Source: Hyphomicrobiales bacterium (GTDB taxonomy: Bacteria > Pseudomonadota > Alphaproteobacteria > Rhizobiales > Xanthobacteraceae). Taken from it: a stretch of DNA of 19,716 nucleotides. Below, piece after piece: positions 3,031 to 17,558 of the stretch. How positions within the stretch are numbered: the first letter of the stretch is position 1; each line of letters starts with the position of its first letter. Position numbers and translations under genes: made by a program. The stretch is taken from contig JACQDO010000120.1 in the NCBI GenBank assembly GCA_016201085.1, positions 1 through 19,716 on the forward strand. The letters run 5' to 3'. A model generated the notes under the pieces. That model was not told the DNA's origin, did no database searches, and saw only the letters and a list, made by a program, of their open reading frames with translations.

Positions 3031-3343
3031 CGACGACTTCAATCAGCAGGCCAACGGCGTGCTGGTCGTGCGTTGAAATATTCTACTATAGCGAGTAACT
3101 TGATAGGATGCGCGTATATCGGGCGTTTCGGCGAACCTTGTATTTTTCAACTATGCGCATTGCACCGCTGCATAACGCTGATGGAACTCGCACAAAAAAA
3201 TGGTAATGCGCAACCACGCGCCGGTAACTTGTAACCGTTCGCTATCGATTTGTTCACTAATTCGAGAAAAGCGCGCCCATTGTACATCTATATATGAGGA
3301 TTTTATGGGCACTCTCCCGGCCTAAAGGATGGGATATCTGTGC
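3031..3343. other. AT-richer intergenic region upstream of the binding-protein/c-di-GMP operon
   Basis: About 310 bases with no convincing gene. Base composition drops clearly below that of the neighbours, with A/T runs (for example TGTATTTTTCAA near 3140 and an A7 run near 3195). It probably carries the promoter and control sites of the 3344-6372 operon. An imperfect palindrome around CGGTAACTTGTAACCG (about 3222-3237) and a TATATA stretch near 3289-3294 could be control elements, but I find no -35/-10 pair good enough to place. Confidence 0.4.
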
Positions 3344-4162
3344 ATGCGCGCGTCGCGTTCGTGTGTGGTTGTTGCGATGTGCCTTGCCGGCTCGCTCATG
3401 GCGGCGAGCGCGGCACCGGCACAGCCGTTGCGCATGGGCGGCACCGGCAGCGTGCTCGGCCTGTTGCAACAGGTTAGCGCCGAGTTCACCACCGCCACCG
3501 AGACCAAAATCGACATCGTGCCGGCGCTTGGCAGTTCCGGGGCCATGCGCGCTCTGGCCGATGGCAAGCTGGACCTGGTCGTCTCGGCGCGGTCGCTGAA
3601 TGCCGATCAAGTGGCCGCCGGCCTCACCCAGGTCGCCGTATTGCAAACCGCGTATGTCTTTGCAACCTCGCACCGCAATCCAAACGGATTGAAGAGCCAA
3701 GATCTTGCCGGAATTTTTGCGAGCGAGAAGCCGACATGGGACGACGGCACGCCGATGCGCATCATTCTGCGCCCGCGCAGCGAGGCCGATACCACGCTGC
3801 TCGGTAAACTCTTCGCCGGCATGGACGCGGCGATTGAAACGGCGCGGCGGCGCAGCGAAGTGCCGACCGCGGCGACCGATCAGGACAATGTCGCGCTGGC
3901 GGAGCGTGTGTCCGGCTCATTGATCGGAACCAGCGCGGCCCAGCTTGCGACCGAGCATCCCAATCTGCGCGTTGTACCGCTCGACAATGTCGTACCGAAC
4001 TTCGCGAATTACCAAAGCGGCGTCTACCCATACACCAAGCTGCTGTACGTGCTCATTCGCGCCAACGGCAACCAAGAAACGCACCGTTTCGTCGATTTCC
4101 TGCGCTCCCCTGCGGGGGTGAAGACGCTGCGCGCCGCGGAAACCGTTCTGGGCGTTAAATGA
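3344..4162 (+). CDS. Periplasmic PstS-like substrate-binding protein paired with a GGDEF-EAL protein
   Basis: A 272-residue exported protein. The start at 3344 gives a clean signal peptide (MRASRS, hydrophobic core about 8-21, cleavage near ASA-AP or APA-QP) and has GGATGGGA about nine bases upstream. A start at 3329 is in frame but lies directly against the AAAGG. The mature part resembles the phosphate-binding PBP-like_2 fold: GGTGSVLGLLQQVSAEF, then PALGSSGAMRALADGKLDLVVSAR, DLAGIFASEKPTWDDG, and YPYTKLLYVLI near the end. The ligand may be phosphate or another oxyanion or small acid. Its stop overlaps the next start as ATGA. No ABC permease genes follow, so a sensory rather than a transport role is likely, in the way NspS serves MbaA in Vibrio. 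That analogy is inference. Confidence 0.8.
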   Translation: MRASRSCVVVAMCLAGSLMAASAAPAQPLRMGGTGSVLGLLQQVSAEFTTATETKIDIVPALGSSGAMRALADGKLDLVVSARSLNADQVAAGLTQVAVLQTAYVFATSHRNPNGLKSQDLAGIFASEKPTWDDGTPMRIILRPRSEADTTLLGKLFAGMDAAIETARRRSEVPTAATDQDNVALAERVSGSLIGTSAAQLATEHPNLRVVPLDNVVPNFANYQSGVYPYTKLLYVLIRANGNQETHRFVDFLRSPAGVKTLRAAETVLGVK

Positions 4163-6372
4163 TGCAGGGTGTCGCGCTCAGGAAATTGGTCAGCACGATC
4201 GGGCTTACCGTTGCGATCACGACTGCCGTCGCTACGCCAAGCGTCTACCTTATCCACGACTACTATAATGTCTCGGAGCACATGGCGTTCAAAGCCCGAT
4301 TGAATGCCGCGCGGGTCGCCCAGTACATCTATGCACACGGCGACTTGTGGCAGTATCAGCAGTTGCGGCTCACCGAGTTGATCCAATTGCCCGAGATCGG
4401 TGCGCGGCCTATCCGGCAAAAAATTTACGACCGGGACAAACGTCTGGTGCTCGAAGAGGGCGCGCCTGTAGCTGCACCGATAATGACCCGCAGTATACCG
4501 ATTGTCGTTGCCGGCTCGACCGTGGGCGATTTCGTCGTCGAAGAGAGCCTGCGCAAGACCCTCTACGAGACCGGACTGGTCGCTTTCATATCCGCGCTGA
4601 TCGGCTTTGGCGCGTATTTTGCGCTGCGAGTGTTTCCGCTGCGCGTGCTCGATCGCACGCTTGGCGACCTGCACGAGACTCAGCGCCGGCTGGCCGCGCA
4701 GAACGAACGCTTCGACACCGCATTGACCCATATGTCGCAGGGCCTGGTGATGTTCGATGCGTCGGCTCACATGGTTGTGTTCAATCAACGCTACATCGAC
4801 ATGTTCGGACTGTCGCGGGACATCATCAAGCCTGGCGCCAGCCTGCGCGATGTCCTCCACCATCGGGTTTCAACCGGCGGCTTCTCCGCCGACGAAGTCG
4901 ACGACTATATGGCCGGCGTCCTGGCCGCCGTACGCGAGGGAAACACCTTCAGCAAGATCACGAAATTGCCGGACGGCCGGACCATTTCCATTGTCAATCA
5001 GCCGACCGTGGACGGCGGCTGGGTCGCTACCCACGAGGACATCACCGAACGGCTTCTGGCCGAGGAAAAGATCAGGCACTTGGCGCATTACGATGCACTC
5101 ACCGACCTGCCGAACCGTGTCAAATTCTACGATTGGATGGAAACGGCGCTGGCCCGCATGCGCCGCTCGGAAAACATTGCGGTTCTCAGCCTCGATCTCG
5201 ATCATTTCAAGAACGTCAACGATACGCTTGGCCATCCGGCCGGCGACCGGTTGCTGCAAGTCGTGGCCGAGCGCATGCGCGCTTGCGTGCGGGCCGAGGA
5301 TCTTGTGGCGCGCCTGGGTGGCGACGAATTCGCCATCGTGCAGGTTTCCTCGGCAAAGACGCCGAATATCGCCGAGTTGGCCGCGCGCGTCATCGAGCAG
5401 GTGGGTGCGTCCTACGATATCGACGGCCACCAGGTCGTCGTCGGCGGCAGCATCGGCATCGCCATCGCCCCGGGCGACGGCAAGGTGCCCGATGTCATCA
5501 TGAAGAACGCGGATCTGGCGCTCTACCGCGCCAAGGCCGACGGCGGCGGCGTCTACCGTTTCTTCGAGGTCGGAATGGACGCCCGCATGCGGGCGCGCAG
5601 CGTGCTCGAGCTCGATCTACGCAAGGCGATCGTGAACGGCGAGTTCGAGCTTTATTACCAGCCGATCGTCGACGTCAAAAGCGGACACGCCACCGGCTGC
5701 GAGGCGCTGGTGCGCTGGCATCATCCCGAGCGCGGGCTGGTGCTGCCGGGCGAATTCATTGCGCTGGCGGAAGAAACCGGCCTCATCGTGCCCTTGGGCG
5801 AGTGGATTTTGCGGCAGGCCTGCGCCGCGGCGGCGCGCTGGCCCAAGCACGTGACTGTCGCCGTGAATCTCTCGCCGGCCCAGTTCAAGAGCCGCAACAT
5901 GGTGCAGACCGTCATCAGCGCGCTGGCTGCATCAGGTCTGGCGGCCGGCCGGCTCGAGCTGGAGATCACCGAACTGGTGCTGTTGCAGGAGACCGAAGGC
6001 GCCTTCGCCATTCTGCATCAATTGCGCGAACTCGGCATCAGAATCGCGATGGACGACTTCGGCACCGGCTATTCCTCGCTCGGCTATCTGCGCAGTTTCC
6101 CGTTCGACAAGATCAAGATCGACCAGTCCTTCATCCGCGATTTGACCACCAAGGAAGACAGCGTCGCCATCATTCGCGCCGTGGTCGGCCTGAGCAGCAG
6201 CATGGGGATCACGACCACCGCCGAGGGCGTCGAGACGAAAGATCAGCTCGCGCGCCTGACTGCGGAAGGCTGCAACGAGGTGCAGGGCTATCTGTTCAGT
6301 CCGCCGCTGCCGGCCGGCGAGATCGAACGGGCGCTCGACAAGCTCAGCCCGCGCATCGAGGCGGTGGCCTGA
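4159..6372 (+). CDS. Membrane PAS-GGDEF-EAL protein (bifunctional diguanylate cyclase/phosphodiesterase candidate)
   Basis: A 737-residue inner-membrane protein. Transmembrane helix 1 is about 10-32, a periplasmic domain of about 105 residues follows, and helix 2 is about 138-160. A short coiled linker leads to a PAS domain (about 180-300), then GGDEF (about 305-470) and EAL (about 483-730). GGDEF is intact (387-391) with an RAED inhibitory site at 378-381. EAL carries its key motifs: CEALVRW (E515), NLSPAQF, LEITE, DDFGTGYSSL (D632-D633), KIDQSF, AEGVET (E689) and QGYLF. Both c-di-GMP synthesis and breakdown are therefore possible. The gene overlaps the periplasmic binding protein by four bases, so the small periplasmic domain is a natural docking site for that protein. 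Output direction and ligand cannot be told from sequence. Confidence 0.92.
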   Translation: MMQGVALRKLVSTIGLTVAITTAVATPSVYLIHDYYNVSEHMAFKARLNAARVAQYIYAHGDLWQYQQLRLTELIQLPEIGARPIRQKIYDRDKRLVLEEGAPVAAPIMTRSIPIVVAGSTVGDFVVEESLRKTLYETGLVAFISALIGFGAYFALRVFPLRVLDRTLGDLHETQRRLAAQNERFDTALTHMSQGLVMFDASAHMVVFNQRYIDMFGLSRDIIKPGASLRDVLHHRVSTGGFSADEVDDYMAGVLAAVREGNTFSKITKLPDGRTISIVNQPTVDGGWVATHEDITERLLAEEKIRHLAHYDALTDLPNRVKFYDWMETALARMRRSENIAVLSLDLDHFKNVNDTLGHPAGDRLLQVVAERMRACVRAEDLVARLGGDEFAIVQVSSAKTPNIAELAARVIEQVGASYDIDGHQVVVGGSIGIAIAPGDGKVPDVIMKNADLALYRAKADGGGVYRFFEVGMDARMRARSVLELDLRKAIVNGEFELYYQPIVDVKSGHATGCEALVRWHHPERGLVLPGEFIALAEETGLIVPLGEWILRQACAAAARWPKHVTVAVNLSPAQFKSRNMVQTVISALAASGLAAGRLELEITELVLLQETEGAFAILHQLRELGIRIAMDDFGTGYSSLGYLRSFPFDKIKIDQSFIRDLTTKEDSVAIIRAVVGLSSSMGITTTAEGVETKDQLARLTAEGCNEVQGYLFSPPLPAGEIERALDKLSPRIEAVA

Positions 6373-10542: not shown

Positions 10543-11385
10543 TTACCGCCTGTTGGCCGGCTGACGCTTGGGCGGCGGCGTCTCTTTCTTCGGCGCCTCG
10601 GCGCGCGGCTCCGGCGCGGAGTTGGCGGCGGCGTCGATGTCTTCCAGCAAAGCGCGCAGGCGCGCGGCATTGGCGCCGAAATCGTGCGTGCCGTAGCGCG
10701 AGGCCGAGCGCAGATCGACGCGCGTGCCCTGCCCGAGCGGGCTGATGCGGATCACCACGTCGTCGCGGAAGCCCATGATCGGGGTGCGCGCCACCGCCTC
10801 GATGCTGCCGTCGCGGCGGCTGGCCGCCGGCGGGTTGGAATCGACCAGCAGCCATTTGCGTTTGGTGGCGATAGCCAACGCGATGTCGTAGGCGGTCTTC
10901 GGCGGCACATCCAGTTGCAGCGGCACGATGTCGGGATAGGCCGCGCGCTGGCGCTCGGCGGTGGCGTTGCCGGGATAAGCGATGCGGTCGCGCGGCCGCA
11001 GCCGCGTCAGCACATCGAAACGCGGCGGATTGGCCGGATCGGTGGTGATGTCGTTGATCGCCGGCAGCTTGCTGGCGCGATAACCGAGATAGCTTGGATA
11101 AGAGAGCAGCAGCAGCCCGAGCAAAAGCCCGAGCAAAGAGTAGCCGAGGCCGGAAAGGCCCTGCCGCCAGATCACGATGAAGCTCGCGAAGGCCAGCAGG
11201 ATCGCCAGCGCGGCGAACACCAAGGCGGCGGCGAAGGTCGCCAGCGCCGGCACGATCTCCAGCAGGCCGGAGCGCAGGATGACGACCGAGAGCGCGGCGA
11301 CCGCGAAGGCGAACAGGCCCAGCCGGCCGGACCAGGCCGCCAGTTTCGACATCGGTTCAGCGGCGAAAGAGGCTCGTCGCGCCAT
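10543..11385 (-). CDS. DUF1499 domain membrane protein
   Basis: 280 residues. Three hydrophobic segments lie at about 20-36, 44-72 and 79-100, followed by a soluble DUF1499 domain (about 108-250). The family pattern is clear: NDITTDPANPPRF, YPDIVPLQL, SIEAVARTPIMGFRDDVVIR and SRYGTHDFGANAARLRALL. The tail is Pro/Lys/Arg rich. DUF1499 has no firmly known activity; it often occurs with envelope or membrane-lipid genes. The ATG at 11385 has AGGA six bases upstream. It is the last gene of a three-gene operon, eight bases after the M48 peptidase stop, so a shared membrane role with that protease is likely. Confidence 0.88.
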   Translation of the reverse strand: MARRASFAAEPMSKLAAWSGRLGLFAFAVAALSVVILRSGLLEIVPALATFAAALVFAALAILLAFASFIVIWRQGLSGLGYSLLGLLLGLLLLSYPSYLGYRASKLPAINDITTDPANPPRFDVLTRLRPRDRIAYPGNATAERQRAAYPDIVPLQLDVPPKTAYDIALAIATKRKWLLVDSNPPAASRRDGSIEAVARTPIMGFRDDVVIRISPLGQGTRVDLRSASRYGTHDFGANAARLRALLEDIDAAANSAPEPRAEAPKKETPPPKRQPANRR

Positions 11386-11393
11386 ATCTTATC

Positions 11394-12497
11394 CTACCCC
11401 GCGCATATCCGTTTCAAGGCCGCCCATTCCTCGGCATCGAGCATGGGCTCTGCCGGCCGCTCCGCGGCCAGTCTGTTGATAGCGGCAATGCGCGCCTTGG
11501 TCTCCGGGTGATCGAGAAGAATCTGCATGCCCGGTTCGGTGGCGCCGCCGATCTTCTCCAACATGCTGGCGAGCGCGCGCGCATTGCCGCCGGCCTTGTT
11601 CATCAGCGCGGTGCCATAGGCATCGGCGGCCGCTTCAGCCTCGCGCGAATAGGATGACTGCAACACCGATTTGGCGGCCAATACCACGGCGCCGCCGCCG
11701 ACAAAATCGCCCAGCAGCATGCCGAATAAAAACGACAATCCGCCCGCCTGCAACACCGCCTTGCTGCCGTCGCGGTGCGCGACATGGCCGAGTTCGTGCG
11801 CGATCACGCCGGCCACCTCGTCAGCCGTGGCGGCCTTCTCGATCAGGCCGCGGAACACATAAATCTGGCCACCCGGCAGCGCCATGGCATTGGCTTCGGT
11901 CCGGCGCACGACGATGCCGCGCACCGGCAGCGGCAGGTCGGCGGCGGTTTGCAACTTTTGCATCAGCTTGTCGAAGGCGGCGCGGCCGGGCTTTTCGCTA
12001 TCCTGGCTGCCGCACTCGAAGCCGGCGCCGAGACGGCGGTTGTCGAGCAGCGTGCGCACCTGCATGTCGACGGCTTCGCCGAGCTTGCGCTCGATACCCG
12101 CCGGCAACAGCGGCGCCAACCGTTCGGCGATCGCCGGCACGCCGAACCAGGCGACCAGCAGCAGCGACGCGGTAGCGGCCACGCTCCAGCCGATGACGCG
12201 GATGCGCTGACGGCGCTGGCGCAGGCCGGTGCGGTCGACATGCAGCGCGCGTGCATCGATGATGGCTGCGAATTGCGTATCGGTGATTTCCAGGCGTTCG
12301 AGCGCCGCGCTGCCGCGGCGGCCGAGCCGCAGCACGCTGTCGGGCGCGGCCAGGCCCTCGATCTGGTCATAGGGCCATTGCGCCAGCAGCCTTCCGTCGC
12401 GGCCGGCGATCTCAAGGCCGGATGCGCCAAGCGCCACGCCCACGTCCTGGCGGACGCTGGTCTGGCCGTCGAAATAGATGCCGGCGCCGGTGGTCAT
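11394..12497 (-). CDS. M48 family metallopeptidase
   Basis: 367 residues. An N-terminal beta-rich region (about 5-70: YFDGQTSVRQDVGVAL ... WPYDQIEGL) precedes one transmembrane helix (about 102-122). The C-terminal M48 domain (about 145-350) has the zinc motif HELGH (234-238), the third ligand in SREAEAAADAYG (E288), and a late histidine in LLDHPETKARI (H330) that matches the switch histidine known from BepA. It is probably a membrane-anchored protease that clears misfolded envelope proteins. An in-frame TTG at 12500 exists, but the ATG at 12497 overlaps the stop of the upstream DUF898 gene as TGATG, so translation is coupled. Second gene of the operon. Confidence 0.9.
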   Translation of the reverse strand: MTTGAGIYFDGQTSVRQDVGVALGASGLEIAGRDGRLLAQWPYDQIEGLAAPDSVLRLGRRGSAALERLEITDTQFAAIIDARALHVDRTGLRQRRQRIRVIGWSVAATASLLLVAWFGVPAIAERLAPLLPAGIERKLGEAVDMQVRTLLDNRRLGAGFECGSQDSEKPGRAAFDKLMQKLQTAADLPLPVRGIVVRRTEANAMALPGGQIYVFRGLIEKAATADEVAGVIAHELGHVAHRDGSKAVLQAGGLSFLFGMLLGDFVGGGAVVLAAKSVLQSSYSREAEAAADAYGTALMNKAGGNARALASMLEKIGGATEPGMQILLDHPETKARIAAINRLAAERPAEPMLDAEEWAALKRICAG

Positions 12498-13765
12498 CAA
12501 TATCCGCCCACATTAAGCGCATCGGCCAGTCCTTCGCCCAGCGCCGAGCTGGGCGTGCCGCCGGCCTTGACGCGGTCGAGCGCAGACAGACCGGACAATT
12601 GCAGCGATTCCATGCCCAACTGCCAAAGCGACAGCAGCACGGTGGCGCGGTAGATGGTCGAGAAGCCGAGCGCCATAATCACATAGCCGATCAGCAGCAG
12701 GCCGGTCGCCGCGATCTCGCCGGCGGCGCCGGTCGGGCCGCTACCGGCCAGCAGGCCCACCGCCACCAGCCCAACGGCGCCCAGAACCGCCATCGCGATG
12801 CAGAACAACAGGCCGTACCACAGGAAGCGGACATAGGCGCCGTAGACATGGCGCATGCGCAGCGTCGAGGTCACCGACAGCTCGCCGAAGCTCAGTCCCG
12901 AACTCCACCAGCGCAACACCAGCGCCTGGAATGCCGGATAGAGCAGGGCAGCCAGCGTGACGGCGGTGCCCGCCATCAGCATGGCAAATACGATGACGCC
13001 GGCAAGCTGCGGATTGCCGCCCTCGATGCGGCTCATGACATCGTCGCTGCCCGCGCCGAGCGCATCGCCAAGTGCCTTCCAGTCGACCGCCATGACGAAG
13101 GCGCCGACCGTGAGCGCGAGCGGCGCGAACACCATGAGCCACATCGGCAAGCCGCGCCACAGCAGGCGCAGGCCCGAGCCGGCAAAATGGCCGGCGATAT
13201 CGCCGTAATAGGTGTTGCGCATCTTGTAGCGTTCCAGGCTGGCGAGCTGGAACGGATAGGCCAGCCCCAGCGTGAGCGCGGTCGCGAGCCACCACAGCAC
13301 CGCGCGCAGGGCGTAGGCCGAGGCCGAGCCGCCCTGGTGGAAACGCAGCCCGCGATAGATCGTGCGGGTGAGGCGATAGCGGCGGGCGCGATAGACCGCG
13401 TATTGTCCAAGCACGGCCAGCGCGGCAAAGGCGATCACGCCGGATAGCTGCCCAATGGTGCCGAGACCGAGCGCCCCCAGGAAGAAGCCGGCATAGACCG
13501 GAACCAGGATGGTGATCGCCATCAGGAAGCCGATCAGCAGCTCGAACGGCGTGCCGGTATATTCCAGCGTCTCGCCGGCGACCTCGGTGTTGGCCCAGAG
13601 GAAGCGGCGCACGTCGGTGGCCAGCCAGAAGCGGTAGATGCCGAGCGTGACGATGAGCAGCAGCGCGCCGCGAACGAGCAGCCGCCAATAGGCGCGGCGC
13701 GTGCCGAGGAATCGGATGGCGCCATGCGCCGCGGTCGCGCTCGCCTCGAGGCTGGTCATGCGCAT
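12497..13765 (-). CDS. DUF898 (YjgN-like) multi-pass membrane protein
   Basis: 422 residues with about eight to ten hydrophobic segments. The DUF898 hallmarks are IRFLGTRRAYWRLLVRGALL, a TLGIYRFW turn followed by RRFLWANTEVAGETLEYTGT, then a second copy of the same pattern later (LTLGLAYPFQLASLERYKMRNTYYG). YjgN-type proteins are of unknown role and often sit beside M48 peptidases. The ATG at 13765 or at 13759 is likely; a TTG at 13780 is also in frame, and none has a clear ribosome site. First gene of the operon; the divisional overlap with the M48 gene is TGATG. The c-di-GMP gene upstream on the same strand ends 82 bases before this start, so read-through is possible. Confidence 0.87.
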   Translation of the reverse strand: MRMTSLEASATAAHGAIRFLGTRRAYWRLLVRGALLLIVTLGIYRFWLATDVRRFLWANTEVAGETLEYTGTPFELLIGFLMAITILVPVYAGFFLGALGLGTIGQLSGVIAFAALAVLGQYAVYRARRYRLTRTIYRGLRFHQGGSASAYALRAVLWWLATALTLGLAYPFQLASLERYKMRNTYYGDIAGHFAGSGLRLLWRGLPMWLMVFAPLALTVGAFVMAVDWKALGDALGAGSDDVMSRIEGGNPQLAGVIVFAMLMAGTAVTLAALLYPAFQALVLRWWSSGLSFGELSVTSTLRMRHVYGAYVRFLWYGLLFCIAMAVLGAVGLVAVGLLAGSGPTGAAGEIAATGLLLIGYVIMALGFSTIYRATVLLSLWQLGMESLQLSGLSALDRVKAGGTPSSALGEGLADALNVGGY

Positions 13766-13847
13766 GAGGGATAATGGCAAGCGGCGGGCGGCGCAATGTC
13801 CTCGGCGCCATGGCAGGCGTCAACGCTCTCGTCCGCGCGCCTGCAGG

Positions 13848-16190
13848 CTAAGCGACCTTCTGCGCCGCGAAAGCCGGCTTCTCCAGCCGGGCGCGGATGG
13901 CATCCCCGGACATCGGCCGGCCGAACAGATAACCCTGGCCTTCGTGGCAGCCTTGCGAACTCACCAGCTTCATCTGCTCTTCCGTTTCGATGCCTTCGGC
14001 GACCACGATCTTGTCGAGGCCGGCACCGAGGCTGGCGACGGCGCCGATGATGGCGCGGGCGTCGCGCTCGTCGCCAAGATCGACGATGAACGACCGGTCG
14101 ATCTTGATCTTATGGAAGGGGAATTTGCGCAGGTAGTTGAGCGAGGAATAGCCGGTGCCGAAGTCGTCGAGCGACAGGCTGACGCCGAGATTCTTGAGCT
14201 GCCGCATGGCCGCCAGGGTGCCCTCGCTCTCCTCGAGCAGCAAACGCTCAGTGACCTCGAGCTCGAGCCGTTGCGCGGATAGTCCCGACTTCGCCAGCGC
14301 CGAGACCACCTGCAAGGTGAGGCCGCGCTCCCTGAACTGGACCGGCGACAGGTTGACGGCAACCTTGACGCCGTGCGGCCAGGTCGCCGCCTCGACGCAG
14401 GCGCGGTTCAACGCCCATTCGCCGATCGCAATGATCAGGCCGGTCTCCTCGGCAACGGGGATGAACACCGACGGCGGCACATTGCCGCGCACCGGATGCG
14501 TCCAGCGCAGCAGCGCCTCGCAGGTCGTCACCCGGCCGGTCTTCAAGTCGACCAGCGGCTGATAATTCAGGTGGAACTTCTGCAAAGCGAGGGCTTCGCG
14601 CAAATCGAGTTCGAGAGCGCGTCGTTCCTGCGCCGCATCCTCCATCGCCATGGCGAAGAAACAGTGGCTGCCGCCGCCGCTATTCTTGGCGGCGTAGAGC
14701 GCCATGTCGGCCTTCTTGAGCAGTTGATCGGCGTCGACGCCGTCATGCGGCGCCATGGCGATGCCGATCGAGGCGCCGATGTCGATGCGGTGGCCGTCGA
14801 TCTCGAACGGCTGGTTGAGCGTGCTGGCCAGGCGCATGGCCAGGCGCTTGGCGTCCTGGTGGCGCTCGGTGGCCGTCTGTAGCACGACGAATTCGTCGCC
14901 GCCGAAGCGGGTGATCATGTCGATCGGGCGGATGACGGTGCCCAGCCGGGCGGCGACTTCCTTGAGCAGCTTGTCGCCGATCGGATGACCGAGCGTATCG
15001 TTGATCGCCTTGAAGCGGTCAAGATCGATCAGGTGGATGGTGACGTGTCTTTCGCCGTCATCATCGGACGCGAGCATGGCGTTGAACCGCTCGTGGAACT
15101 GCGTGCGGTTGGCGAGCCCGGTGAGCTCGTCGAACCGGGCGAGGTGCGCGATGCGCTCCTGCGCGCGTTTGCGCTCGGTCACGTCTTCAAGAATGACGAC
15201 CGAGCCGCCGTCCGACTTCATGCGGCGCGATACGGCGATGCTGCGTTCGCCGTCCGGCGAGGTCTCGAACTGGTCGAACTTGTCCTGCCGAAGACCGCCG
15301 GCCAGCTCGCAAATCACCTGCTTCACGCTCTTGGCTTTGAAGTTGCCGGCGCGGATGCTGTGCCGGATCAGTTGCGGCATCCGCATGCCGACGTGGACCG
15401 GCGTATCCTGCAGATGAAGCAGTTCGATGAACCGCTCGTTCCAGACCTGCAGGCGATCCTGCTGGTCGAGCATGCACAGGCCGTGCGACATGTTGTTGAG
15501 CGCAATGTCGAAGCGGTTGGCCTGCTCCTCGAAGCGGGCGGCCAGCGCCGCCTCTTTGAGCGTCATGGTCAGTGCCTGCATGATGACGTCGCGGATGCCG
15601 AGCGTGATGTCGATCATCCCGTAGATGAACAACAGCCCTACGACGCCGAGCACTTTGTGTATCCAGTCGGGGTAGATCAGCAGTGCAATCGCCATCGGCA
15701 GCATGATGAAAGTGAGCTGACCGACGGCGATGAACGGGCGTCCGGCATTGCGTCCTGAAATCGCGGCGGCATAGCCGGTCGCGGTGGTGATGACCACCAT
15801 CTGCAGGGTCGCATCCGGGGTGTGCATGAGCGTCAGCCAGCACAACAGGCCGAGCAGGCCGGAGAAACACCAGGCGCCGTATTCGTAGATGTGTTCCCAG
15901 AACTTTGTGACCTCGAGCTGCTGGCTATTTTTGTACTTCCGGTAAAACAGCGCAGACACGACCCGCAGCATACCGACCGCCAGGATGGCGATCGAATTGG
16001 CCATGATCCACCGATCGCCGACGCTTAATGCGACGACCATGCCGATAATCGAGCAGTTAACGGCGCCGATAGTCAGCGAAGAGATCGGCGCAAACAACGA
16101 CTCGACCAAGGCGGCGCGGATCTCCGTCGGGAGATTCGCATCCGCTTTGCGGGTCTGCAGCAGTTTTTTAATCAGCATGTGGCTTCGCAC
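13848..16190 (-). CDS. Six-helix membrane PAS-GGDEF-EAL protein, divergent from rpfF
   Basis: 780 residues. The N-terminal 200 residues hold about six transmembrane helices (about 35-58, 62-83, 104-122, 127-147, 154-173, 178-198) with short loops, an integral-membrane sensor I cannot assign to a named family. A PAS domain follows (about 222-340: FDIALNNMSHGLCMLDQQDR), then GGDEF (about 345-510) and EAL (about 525-770). GGDEF is intact (430-434) with an RPID inhibitory site (421-424). EAL has CEALLRW (E558), NLSPVQF, LEVTE, DDFGTGYSSL, KIDRSF, AEGIET and QGYLF, so it should be a working phosphodiesterase fold. Start: GTG at 16190 with AAGG five bases upstream; ATG at 16178 is the alternative. 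It is head-to-head with a DSF synthase, which makes it a candidate DSF receptor or effector. Confidence 0.9.
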   Translation of the reverse strand: MRSHMLIKKLLQTRKADANLPTEIRAALVESLFAPISSLTIGAVNCSIIGMVVALSVGDRWIMANSIAILAVGMLRVVSALFYRKYKNSQQLEVTKFWEHIYEYGAWCFSGLLGLLCWLTLMHTPDATLQMVVITTATGYAAAISGRNAGRPFIAVGQLTFIMLPMAIALLIYPDWIHKVLGVVGLLFIYGMIDITLGIRDVIMQALTMTLKEAALAARFEEQANRFDIALNNMSHGLCMLDQQDRLQVWNERFIELLHLQDTPVHVGMRMPQLIRHSIRAGNFKAKSVKQVICELAGGLRQDKFDQFETSPDGERSIAVSRRMKSDGGSVVILEDVTERKRAQERIAHLARFDELTGLANRTQFHERFNAMLASDDDGERHVTIHLIDLDRFKAINDTLGHPIGDKLLKEVAARLGTVIRPIDMITRFGGDEFVVLQTATERHQDAKRLAMRLASTLNQPFEIDGHRIDIGASIGIAMAPHDGVDADQLLKKADMALYAAKNSGGGSHCFFAMAMEDAAQERRALELDLREALALQKFHLNYQPLVDLKTGRVTTCEALLRWTHPVRGNVPPSVFIPVAEETGLIIAIGEWALNRACVEAATWPHGVKVAVNLSPVQFRERGLTLQVVSALAKSGLSAQRLELEVTERLLLEESEGTLAAMRQLKNLGVSLSLDDFGTGYSSLNYLRKFPFHKIKIDRSFIVDLGDERDARAIIGAVASLGAGLDKIVVAEGIETEEQMKLVSSQGCHEGQGYLFGRPMSGDAIRARLEKPAFAAQKVA

Positions 16191-16565
16191 GGCTGCCTTG
16201 AAGCCGCCGATCCTACGTGGCGTTGCTCAATATCGTGCAAACGCACAGGCTTATCGGCGCGCGTGATAAATGAGTGGCAAATGGCCGCGTCACGACTTCA
16301 ATAAAATTGTTTCGAATTGGCCCGCGCCCAGTACCGATGCTTATCGAACAGAAGCAGCGGTTATCGAGACGGTATGCGGAAGCGCCGCGAGAGAATTTTT
16401 TTGTAGTTAATGTTCATTTTGAGGCGAATTTTCAGCGCGTTTCGTTGCGCGCGCGTTCGTGGAACTTACGAGTCTTGCGTTCCGCATATGGTTAACAAGC
16501 GATTGCTGATTGTCGCGGGCACGACTTTCTGTTAGGGTAAAAAAATTGTTAACTGGTGCGTCGAA
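16191..16565. promoter_or_regulatory. Divergent control region between the GGDEF-EAL gene and rpfF
   Basis: 375 bases without a gene. GTTAACAA (16491-16498) and TTGTTAAC (16546-16553) form an 8-bp inverted repeat 47 bases apart. Between them lies a possible rpfF promoter, TTGTCG (16510-16515) and TAGGGT (16533-16538), 17 bases apart, though the -10 fits poorly. TTATCG occurs three times: 16251-16256, 16341-16346 and 16361-16366; the last two sit in g(c/g)TTATCGA copies 20 bases apart. A GGTG before the rpfF ATG (16555-16558) is its likely ribosome site. The region is more AT-rich than its flanks (A/T runs near 16310 and 16395). No site can be tied to a known regulator. Confidence 0.5.
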
Positions 16566-17558
16566 ATGTCGATGTATGCGTATTCGAACGCCTATTCTCC
16601 CGGTCGGGCTATCGCTCAGGCGAAGCCCTTTGCTGCGATAGCGCCGGCGGTTCCCGCGATCGATCCCAAGCTGGCCGATCAAAAGCTGATCGATCTTAAG
16701 AAGAGCGCCGACGCGCTTCGGCTGTTTGCGCTGGAACAGCTGGAGGTAACCTGGGAAGAACAAATCGGCGCGCTTTGGACCTTCATGCGGCCGCGCGGCC
16801 GGCCGAGCTACAATTTGGAGCTGCTCGACGACATCCACGCTTTGCAGCGCGGCATCGTGGCGAAGTTCGCCGATCGACCGAACGAGTTGCGCTACCTGAT
16901 CGCCGGCTCGCGCACGCGCGGTGTGTTCAGCCTTGGCGGCGACCTCGACCTGTTCGCGGCCTCAATACGCAAACAGGACCGGCCGGCGCTGGTCACGTAC
17001 GGCAAGTCGTGCGTACGCGTCCTGCACAGGTTCTTGAACGCGCTTGACCTGCCGATCATCACCATCGGATTGGCGCAGGGCGACGCGCTCGGCGGCGGCT
17101 TCGAGTCGCTGCTCTCGTTCAATGTCAGAATTGCCGAGCGCGGCGCCAAGTTCGGCTTCCCCGAAACCATATTCGGCCTGTTCCCCGGCATGGGCGCCTG
17201 CAGCCTGGTGACGCGGCGCACCGGCGCGGCCTTCGCCGAGGAGATGATGCTCAGCGGCAAGACCTACACCGCCGAGCAGATGAAGGACGCCGGCCTGATC
17301 CACATGGTCGTTGAGCCGGGGCAGGGCATCGAGGCCGCGCGCGACTACATGAAGCGCACCGAGCGCCGGCATGTCGGCCACCGCGGCATCTTCAAGGCCG
17401 GGCTCGTGGTCAATCCGGTCACGCTCGATGAGCTCGACCGCATTGTGCAGATCTGGGCCGATACCTGCCTGCAATTGAGCGAGCGCGATCTCAAGGTCAT
17501 GCAGCGGCTGGTGTCCGCGCAGGACCGGCTGCAACCCGCCTTGCAGGCCGCCGAGTAG
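16566..17558 (+). CDS. rpfF: DSF synthase, RpfF-type crotonase-fold enzyme
   Basis: 330 residues. RpfF makes cis-2-unsaturated fatty acid signals (DSF family) from acyl-ACP by thioesterase and dehydratase steps. Both glutamates are present at the right spacing: E180 in DALGGGFES and E200 in FGFPETIFGLFPGMGA (20 apart, as E141/E161 in Xanthomonas RpfF). Other RpfF traits: FSLGGDLDLF (121-130), SGKTYTAEQMKDAGL (230-244), and a C-terminal helical region ending IWADTCLQLSERDLKVMQRLVSAQ, which is a near match to the RpfF tail and not found in ordinary enoyl-CoA hydratases. It is about 40 residues longer than known RpfF because of an Ala/Pro-rich N-terminus. No rpfB, rpfC or rpfG is seen; the only divergent partner is the GGDEF-EAL gene. 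The chain length of the product is not predictable. Confidence 0.88.
   Translation: MSMYAYSNAYSPGRAIAQAKPFAAIAPAVPAIDPKLADQKLIDLKKSADALRLFALEQLEVTWEEQIGALWTFMRPRGRPSYNLELLDDIHALQRGIVAKFADRPNELRYLIAGSRTRGVFSLGGDLDLFAASIRKQDRPALVTYGKSCVRVLHRFLNALDLPIITIGLAQGDALGGGFESLLSFNVRIAERGAKFGFPETIFGLFPGMGACSLVTRRTGAAFAEEMMLSGKTYTAEQMKDAGLIHMVVEPGQGIEAARDYMKRTERRHVGHRGIFKAGLVVNPVTLDELDRIVQIWADTCLQLSERDLKVMQRLVSAQDRLQPALQAAE

Follow-up and report, generated by a model that had tools for sequence, protein, structure and literature searches.

A candidate membrane-bound receptor for a DSF-like signal encoded beside rpfF in Alphaproteobacteria

Introduction

A 2015 review recognizes two core pathways of diffusible signal factor (DSF) perception, RpfC/RpfG and the soluble RpfR, together with the accessory kinases RpfS and BCAM0227 (PMC4504480). 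In Xanthomonas, the gene for a multi-helix membrane sensor kinase, RpfC, adjoins the synthase gene rpfF, and RpfC acts via the HD-GYP protein RpfG with cyclic di-GMP (c-di-GMP) as the output (PMC4504480). In Burkholderia and Cronobacter, the synthase gene adjoins that of RpfR, a PAS-GGDEF-EAL protein leading from DSF to c-di-GMP in one step; RpfR is soluble, has FI and PAS domains, and in Burkholderia is transcribed convergently with rpfF (PMC6361424, PMC4504480). In a 2022 review of sensing in c-di-GMP networks, the DSF family is represented by RpfR, a system described as widespread among beta- and gammaproteobacteria (PMC8846402). Here we describe a 19,716-nucleotide stretch of DNA from Hyphomicrobiales bacterium (GenBank assembly GCA_016201085.1, contig JACQDO010000120.1; hereafter the window), in which an rpfF homologue stands head-to-head with a gene for a membrane PAS-GGDEF-EAL protein. 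We call this protein NTM-GE, after its N-terminal six-helix membrane domain (NTM), and propose it as a candidate DSF receptor.

NTM-GE has features of both pathways: it would work like RpfR, linking the signal to c-di-GMP within a single protein, and it is placed like RpfC. It differs from RpfR in being membrane-bound, in that its PAS domain is dispensable, and, in the window, in its divergent gene order; most related pairs are convergent. Unlike RpfC, it has no kinase or phosphorelay domain, and no sequence homology was detected between the two sensors. In other Alphaproteobacteria (Stappia, Pseudovibrio, Roseomonas, Xanthobacteraceae) an RpfC-like kinase holds the same slot beside a homologous rpfF, usually with a GGDEF-EAL protein close by, but that system consists of two proteins and a phosphorelay rather than one fused membrane protein. 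RpfS of Xanthomonas and BCAM0227 of Burkholderia also perceive DSF or Burkholderia DSF (BDSF) beside the core receptors (PMC4504480), although both are histidine kinases and not GGDEF-EAL proteins. Membrane cyclases such as P. aeruginosa ImcA (8wcn) are likewise among the nearest known systems. A literature search over titles and the starts of abstracts, with most subscription papers outside its coverage, returned no description of an rpfF/NTM-GE pairing in Alphaproteobacteria.

Results and discussion

NTM-GE adjoins rpfF across several lineages

To place the window pair, we assembled 134 alphaproteobacterial rpfF loci: the best 80 of 440 confirmed relatives in named genomes, a choice that leans to near relatives of the window RpfF, and 54 regions from an even draw of the order (397 genomes, 55 of them rpfF-positive, yielding these regions plus the window, itself outside the 134). 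Partners were called with profiles built in this analysis, and gaps were measured between open frames, not proven genes. The 134 are loci and not independent genomes; L199 and L094, which have identical match places, are the same record, as are L193/L100, L176/L092, L177/L083 and L201/L081.

The membrane domain of NTM-GE, joined to GGDEF-EAL, adjoins rpfF in 70 of the 134 loci, with the two open frames at most 400 bases apart in 69 of them. These loci span the Pseudolabrys group, Chelatococcus, Maritalea, Sphingomonas, Sphingobium, Novosphingobium and several further families, so the pairing seen in the window, whose conservation the original prediction made from this DNA had left to be checked, reaches well beyond one strain. 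Fifty-two of the pairs are convergent, nine divergent, five on the same strand with the partner upstream and four with it downstream. Adjacency outlasts changes of arrangement, and this speaks more strongly for a functional link than a fixed block would. Divergent orientation was dropped as a defining feature, since only these nine pairs show it, all of them in the Pseudolabrys group (L031–L039). At two loci (L195:6926-7837 and L202:6887-7885) the rpfF open frame overlaps a downstream membrane GGDEF-EAL open frame on the same strand, which suggests a common operon, with the overlap being one of open frames and not of proven starts. In the window's genus, 13 of 24 genomes carry rpfF, and the same 13 carry NTM-GE (Fisher p 4e-7, kinship ignored). 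The pairing is more than chance.

The two proteins of the window

Judged by its crotonase family, its two catalytic glutamates and its overall similarity, the synthase candidate is a member of the RpfF family. Pfam assigns ECH_1, the PRK08788 cut-off is passed (348 vs. 177), and the best four PDB sequences are 7zq7, 3m6m, 6dgn and 5fus (E 1e-52 to 3e-44), of which 3m6m and 6dgn bear the name RpfF. E180 and E200, read directly from the DNA, both align in the three PDB alignments shown and do not vary across the 19 rows of a family alignment that extends to 41% identity.

NTM-GE probably starts at an ATG giving 776 residues (Table 1), as this is the length of most of the 120 homologues listed; a GTG four codons upstream would give 780. 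The AlphaFold model of NTM (mean pLDDT, the predicted local distance difference test score, 92.2) has a short helix, which may be amphipathic, then six long helices that are predicted to sit in the membrane, the last of which continues towards the PAS domain. Pfam finds no family for this region. An alignment of the domain contains 22 invariant columns among 24 rows. The remainder of the protein comprises PAS_7, GGDEF and EAL domains, with the RPID inhibitory site five residues ahead of GGDEF. As the GGDEF, inhibitory-site and EAL motifs are all intact, cyclase and phosphodiesterase activity are both possible. Both open frames lie where the original prediction placed them, and its reading of the genes is confirmed: both glutamates of RpfF, the head-to-head order, and a membrane sensor domain joined in one protein to c-di-GMP enzymes (six helices, PAS, GGDEF with RPID, EAL) all stand, on the model, Pfam and motif reading, and only its length of 780 residues probably needs to be shortened.

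The protein was compared with the two core receptor types. It shares with RpfR the PAS-GGDEF-EAL order beside rpfF, but in place of a soluble protein with an FI domain it has a hydrophobic six-helix N-terminus preceded by ~30 residues. The HisKA-HATPase-REC-Hpt series of RpfC is absent, with Pfam giving PAS_7, GGDEF and EAL only. A profile-profile comparison of NTM with the RpfC input domain gave no match. In structure comparison, the models of NTM and of the RpfC sensor both rank ImcA first, with the rank for NTM tied with an unrelated protein.

PAS is optional and the membrane domain constant

PAS is present in 29 of the 70 rpfF-linked proteins and absent in the other 41, which are the sphingomonad-type members. 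NTM-to-GGDEF spacing is –3 to 2 residues in the PAS-less proteins vs. 112 to 128 in those that bear PAS, and Pfam finds no PAS in the L042 protein. By domain content the PAS domain is therefore dispensable, what stays constant on the sensory side is the six-helix membrane domain, and PAS is disfavoured as the common sensor. The GGDEF motif occurs in 67 of 70 members and was not found in three, and the EAL glutamate is present in 69 of 69. The RxxD inhibitory site of the window protein is shared by only 17 of the 70.

RpfC-like kinases occupy the same slot in other loci

An RpfC-like kinase stands beside rpfF in 48 of the 134 loci, 45 of them convergent, and 16 loci have neither partner. None of the 134 has both; a label of both at L035 was based on a 29-bit fragment match and was dropped. 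The neighbour of rpfF in this set is either NTM-GE or an RpfC-like kinase. Four of the kinases, read in Pfam, have membrane helices followed by HisKA-HATPase-REC-Hpt. In 43 of the 48 loci (e.g. L091:5761-11701, L096:5824-11658) a GGDEF-EAL protein lies within 6 kb, in place of the HD-GYP protein RpfG, and two of these read in Pfam are REC-PAS-GGDEF-EAL. In Xanthomonas RpfC, Arg15, Asp17, Ser18, Glu19 and Gln22 are essential for DSF sensing (PMC5391125). Using a register that we set on the residue order given in that paper, 14 aligned kinase N-termini keep Glu19 in 14, Asp17 in ten, Arg15 in eight, Ser/Thr18 in seven and Gln22 in two. The kinases thus resemble RpfC with the sensing residues unevenly kept, and their DSF binding is putative.

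In the genomes searched, the exclusion extends beyond the locus. An RpfC-type sensor was found in none of the 35 NTM-GE/rpfF genomes searched (35 of the 70 loci) and in none of 24 genomes of the window's genus, with the same query positive in G033. The window is contig C295 of assembly G000 (526 contigs), and this genome, 88.6% complete as assembled, yielded no RpfC-type sensor; a second clear DSF receptor would have told against the original prediction, and on this count, with RpfR and the accessory DSF kinases not searched for, none of the RpfC type was found.

The same query found an RpfC-type sensor in 11 of 17 rpfF genomes without an adjacent partner (L094 and L199 are one genome here, and the search for distant receptors left out L193). 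Four of the 17 (L051, L078, L082 and G204) have NTM elsewhere in the assembly, with profile scores of 157–301 bits, and no RpfC sensor; rpfF of G204 lies near a contig end, and the pair may in truth be adjacent. In G247 a cut GGDEF-EAL gene stands beside rpfF at a contig end. Neither an RpfC-type sensor nor an NTM domain was found in G140, also among the 17. The rpfF of G140 (L186) is a distant homologue, at 248 bits. In G563, rpfF and NTM are 208 kb apart, and the 12 best matches of its NTM are all rpfF-linked. The exclusion with an RpfC-type sensor concerns the rpfF-linked kind of NTM, in the genomes searched.

A proposed one-component receptor and its alternatives

We think it likely that NTM-GE is a membrane one-component receptor for a DSF-like signal, holding the slot that RpfC has in related bacteria and forming a self-contained module with RpfF. 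The rpfF/NTM-GE pair as such is a real and conserved DSF-type module, and probably an undescribed one. Its family, its catalytic residues and its nearest relatives of solved structure suggest that RpfF would make a cis-2-unsaturated fatty acid from acyl-acyl carrier protein. The six helices of NTM would perceive this signal at or in the inner membrane, at a putative binding site, and the last of them, together with PAS where present, would pass the change to the fused GGDEF-EAL. This in turn would shift c-di-GMP, probably, by analogy with RpfR, by raising the EAL phosphodiesterase; for this module we infer the identity of the signal, its binding site and the direction of output. NTM-GE would then be a dedicated receptor and effector in one, which in its lineages stands where other Alphaproteobacteria have an RpfC-like hybrid kinase, itself usually with a GGDEF-EAL partner. 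Part of the original prediction of a one-step membrane receptor linking DSF to c-di-GMP is supported, namely the conserved pairing and the membrane sensor fused to GGDEF-EAL, along with the failure to find an RpfC-type sensor in the window genome. Its analogy with Burkholderia, where it took RpfF to be divergent from RpfR, does not, as two papers give these genes as convergent (PMC6361424, PMC4504480).

Several observations weigh against the receptor model, or limit its reach. NTM occurs in 96 of the 397 genomes of the order, many without rpfF, so that an exclusive link of NTM to rpfF was rejected (the NTM cut-off was 1e-8 in this survey and 1e-20 in the class sample below). Weaker NTM relatives also occur in RpfC-carrying genomes, in three of 31 RpfC-linked genomes of the order and at L087 and L105. 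At 206 bits, the window RpfF falls below the curated cut-off of 550 of the NCBIfam RpfF equivalog NF053515, which is also missed by three RpfC-linked alphaproteobacterial RpfFs (227 to 235 bits). On a tree built from 70 linked NTM domains and 54 unlinked ones, nine linked rows sit nearer the unlinked group. The other 61 linked rows form two clades without any unlinked row, the 54 unlinked domains lie outside these two clades, and unlinked L243 falls in a small clade with linked rows. The linkage label needs three changes on this tree, and two changes of partner are needed on the RpfF tree (129 of 134 rows kept, five dropped as repeated cores or short rows); both are quick trees, for which shuffles show clustering only. 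Finally, among 385 alphaproteobacterial genomes drawn evenly by family, 24 have rpfF, and the window's genome alone has NTM-GE next to it. Of the 23 rpfF loci fetched from this sample, 17 have an RpfC-like kinase as neighbour and six have no adjacent partner, two of these at contig ends, with RpfC sensors elsewhere in G764 and G650. Class-wide generality of the pair was accordingly rejected: the pairing is a lineage-restricted alternative to RpfC and not an alphaproteobacterial rule.

The presence of NTM in many rpfF-less genomes and the missed NF053515 cut-off would suit an unlikely alternative, in which RpfF is an ordinary lipid-metabolism crotonase, NTM-GE responds to something unrelated, for instance the state of the membrane, and the two are neighbours by shared regulation only. 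Set against this, RpfF proteins are among the closest solved relatives and align at both glutamates, and one slot is held by the kinase in 48 loci, by NTM-GE in 70 and by both in none, with no RpfC-type sensor in the 35 genomes searched. Shared regulation alone does not predict such exclusion, which therefore counts against this explanation. We give somewhat less credence to the idea that PAS_7 binds the signal, as the cytosolic PAS of Burkholderia RpfR binds BDSF (PMC6361424, PMC8846402), leaving the six helices as a mere anchor: the window protein does have PAS_7, but in the 41 PAS-less proteins, L042 among them, NTM abuts GGDEF, and it is NTM that, with its invariant columns, is the constant part. 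NTM-GE might instead chiefly restrain RpfF by binding it, without being a receptor itself. RpfC itself has a domain that holds RpfF. The precedent in RpfR is the FI domain (residues 1–95), which binds and inhibits RpfF (PMC6361424), but the ~30 residues modeled before the first membrane helix of NTM-GE are too few for an FI-like domain, and we regard this last explanation as highly improbable. The receptor model could accommodate restraint of RpfF as a further role.

Beyond the receptor model itself, we see balanced prospects for a broader proposal: a further core DSF receptor class beside RpfC and RpfR, whose six-helix domain senses the fatty acid in the membrane, possibly on the overall plan of the RpfC sensor, and drives a fused GGDEF-EAL directly. 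Such a class would take the place of RpfC-type relays in the Pseudolabrys group, several Hyphomicrobiales and sphingomonads, and its rpfF-less relatives may hear the signals of other species. NTM-domain proteins occur without a detected rpfF in G058, G375, G259, G387 and others of the window's family; these could be listening for signals from other organisms or sensing something different. If the proposal is true, DSF signaling extends to common environmental bacteria (sphingomonads, several Hyphomicrobiales), a single protein leads from signal to c-di-GMP, and a membrane sensor domain with no known ligand gains a candidate.

Features of the window

The region between the two genes has a GC content of 50% (measured on 16191-16565) vs. 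64% for the window, and both promoters would be expected within it. Promoter and terminator scans gave near-chance numbers.

Table 1. Positions of the features described, in window coordinates.
Feature	Position	Strand	Details
rpfF-like gene	16566..17558	+	Crotonase-family DSF synthase homologue, 330 aa
RpfF catalytic E180 codon	17103-17105	+	Read directly
RpfF catalytic E200 codon	17163-17165	+	Read directly
NTM-GE, membrane PAS-GGDEF-EAL protein, candidate DSF receptor	13848..16178	-	776 aa, ATG at 16178 (probable start)
NTM-GE, alternative start	13848-16190	-	780 aa, GTG at 16190
NTM, N-terminal six-helix membrane domain	15516..16178	-	Hallmark GYAAAISGRNAGRP; AlphaFold model, alignment
PAS_7 domain of NTM-GE	15156..15500	-	Pfam, residues 231-345
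GGDEF domain of NTM-GE	14673..15137	-	Pfam, residues 352-506; GGDEF and RxxD (RPID) inhibitory-site motif intact
EAL domain of NTM-GE	13914..14606	-	Pfam, residues 529-759; EALLRW, NLSP, EVTE, DDFGTGYSS, KIKIDRSF, EGIE intact
Intergenic region between rpfF and NTM-GE	16179..16565	.	387 bases
DUF898 gene	12497-13780	-
M48 peptidase gene	11394-12500	-
DUF1499 gene	10543-11385	-
PBP_like_2 gene and second PAS_7-GGDEF-EAL gene	3329-6372	+	Overlap of 4 bases; second protein 737 aa

Downstream of NTM-GE, its strand carries the DUF898, M48 peptidase and DUF1499 genes. L031, L035 and L036 likewise have all three near the pair, and L034 and L038 have DUF1499 there. Elsewhere in the window, a PBP_like_2 solute-binding gene overlaps the start of a gene for a second PAS_7-GGDEF-EAL protein, which has two hydropathy peaks around a possibly periplasmic region; these two could form a binding-protein-fed c-di-GMP sensor.

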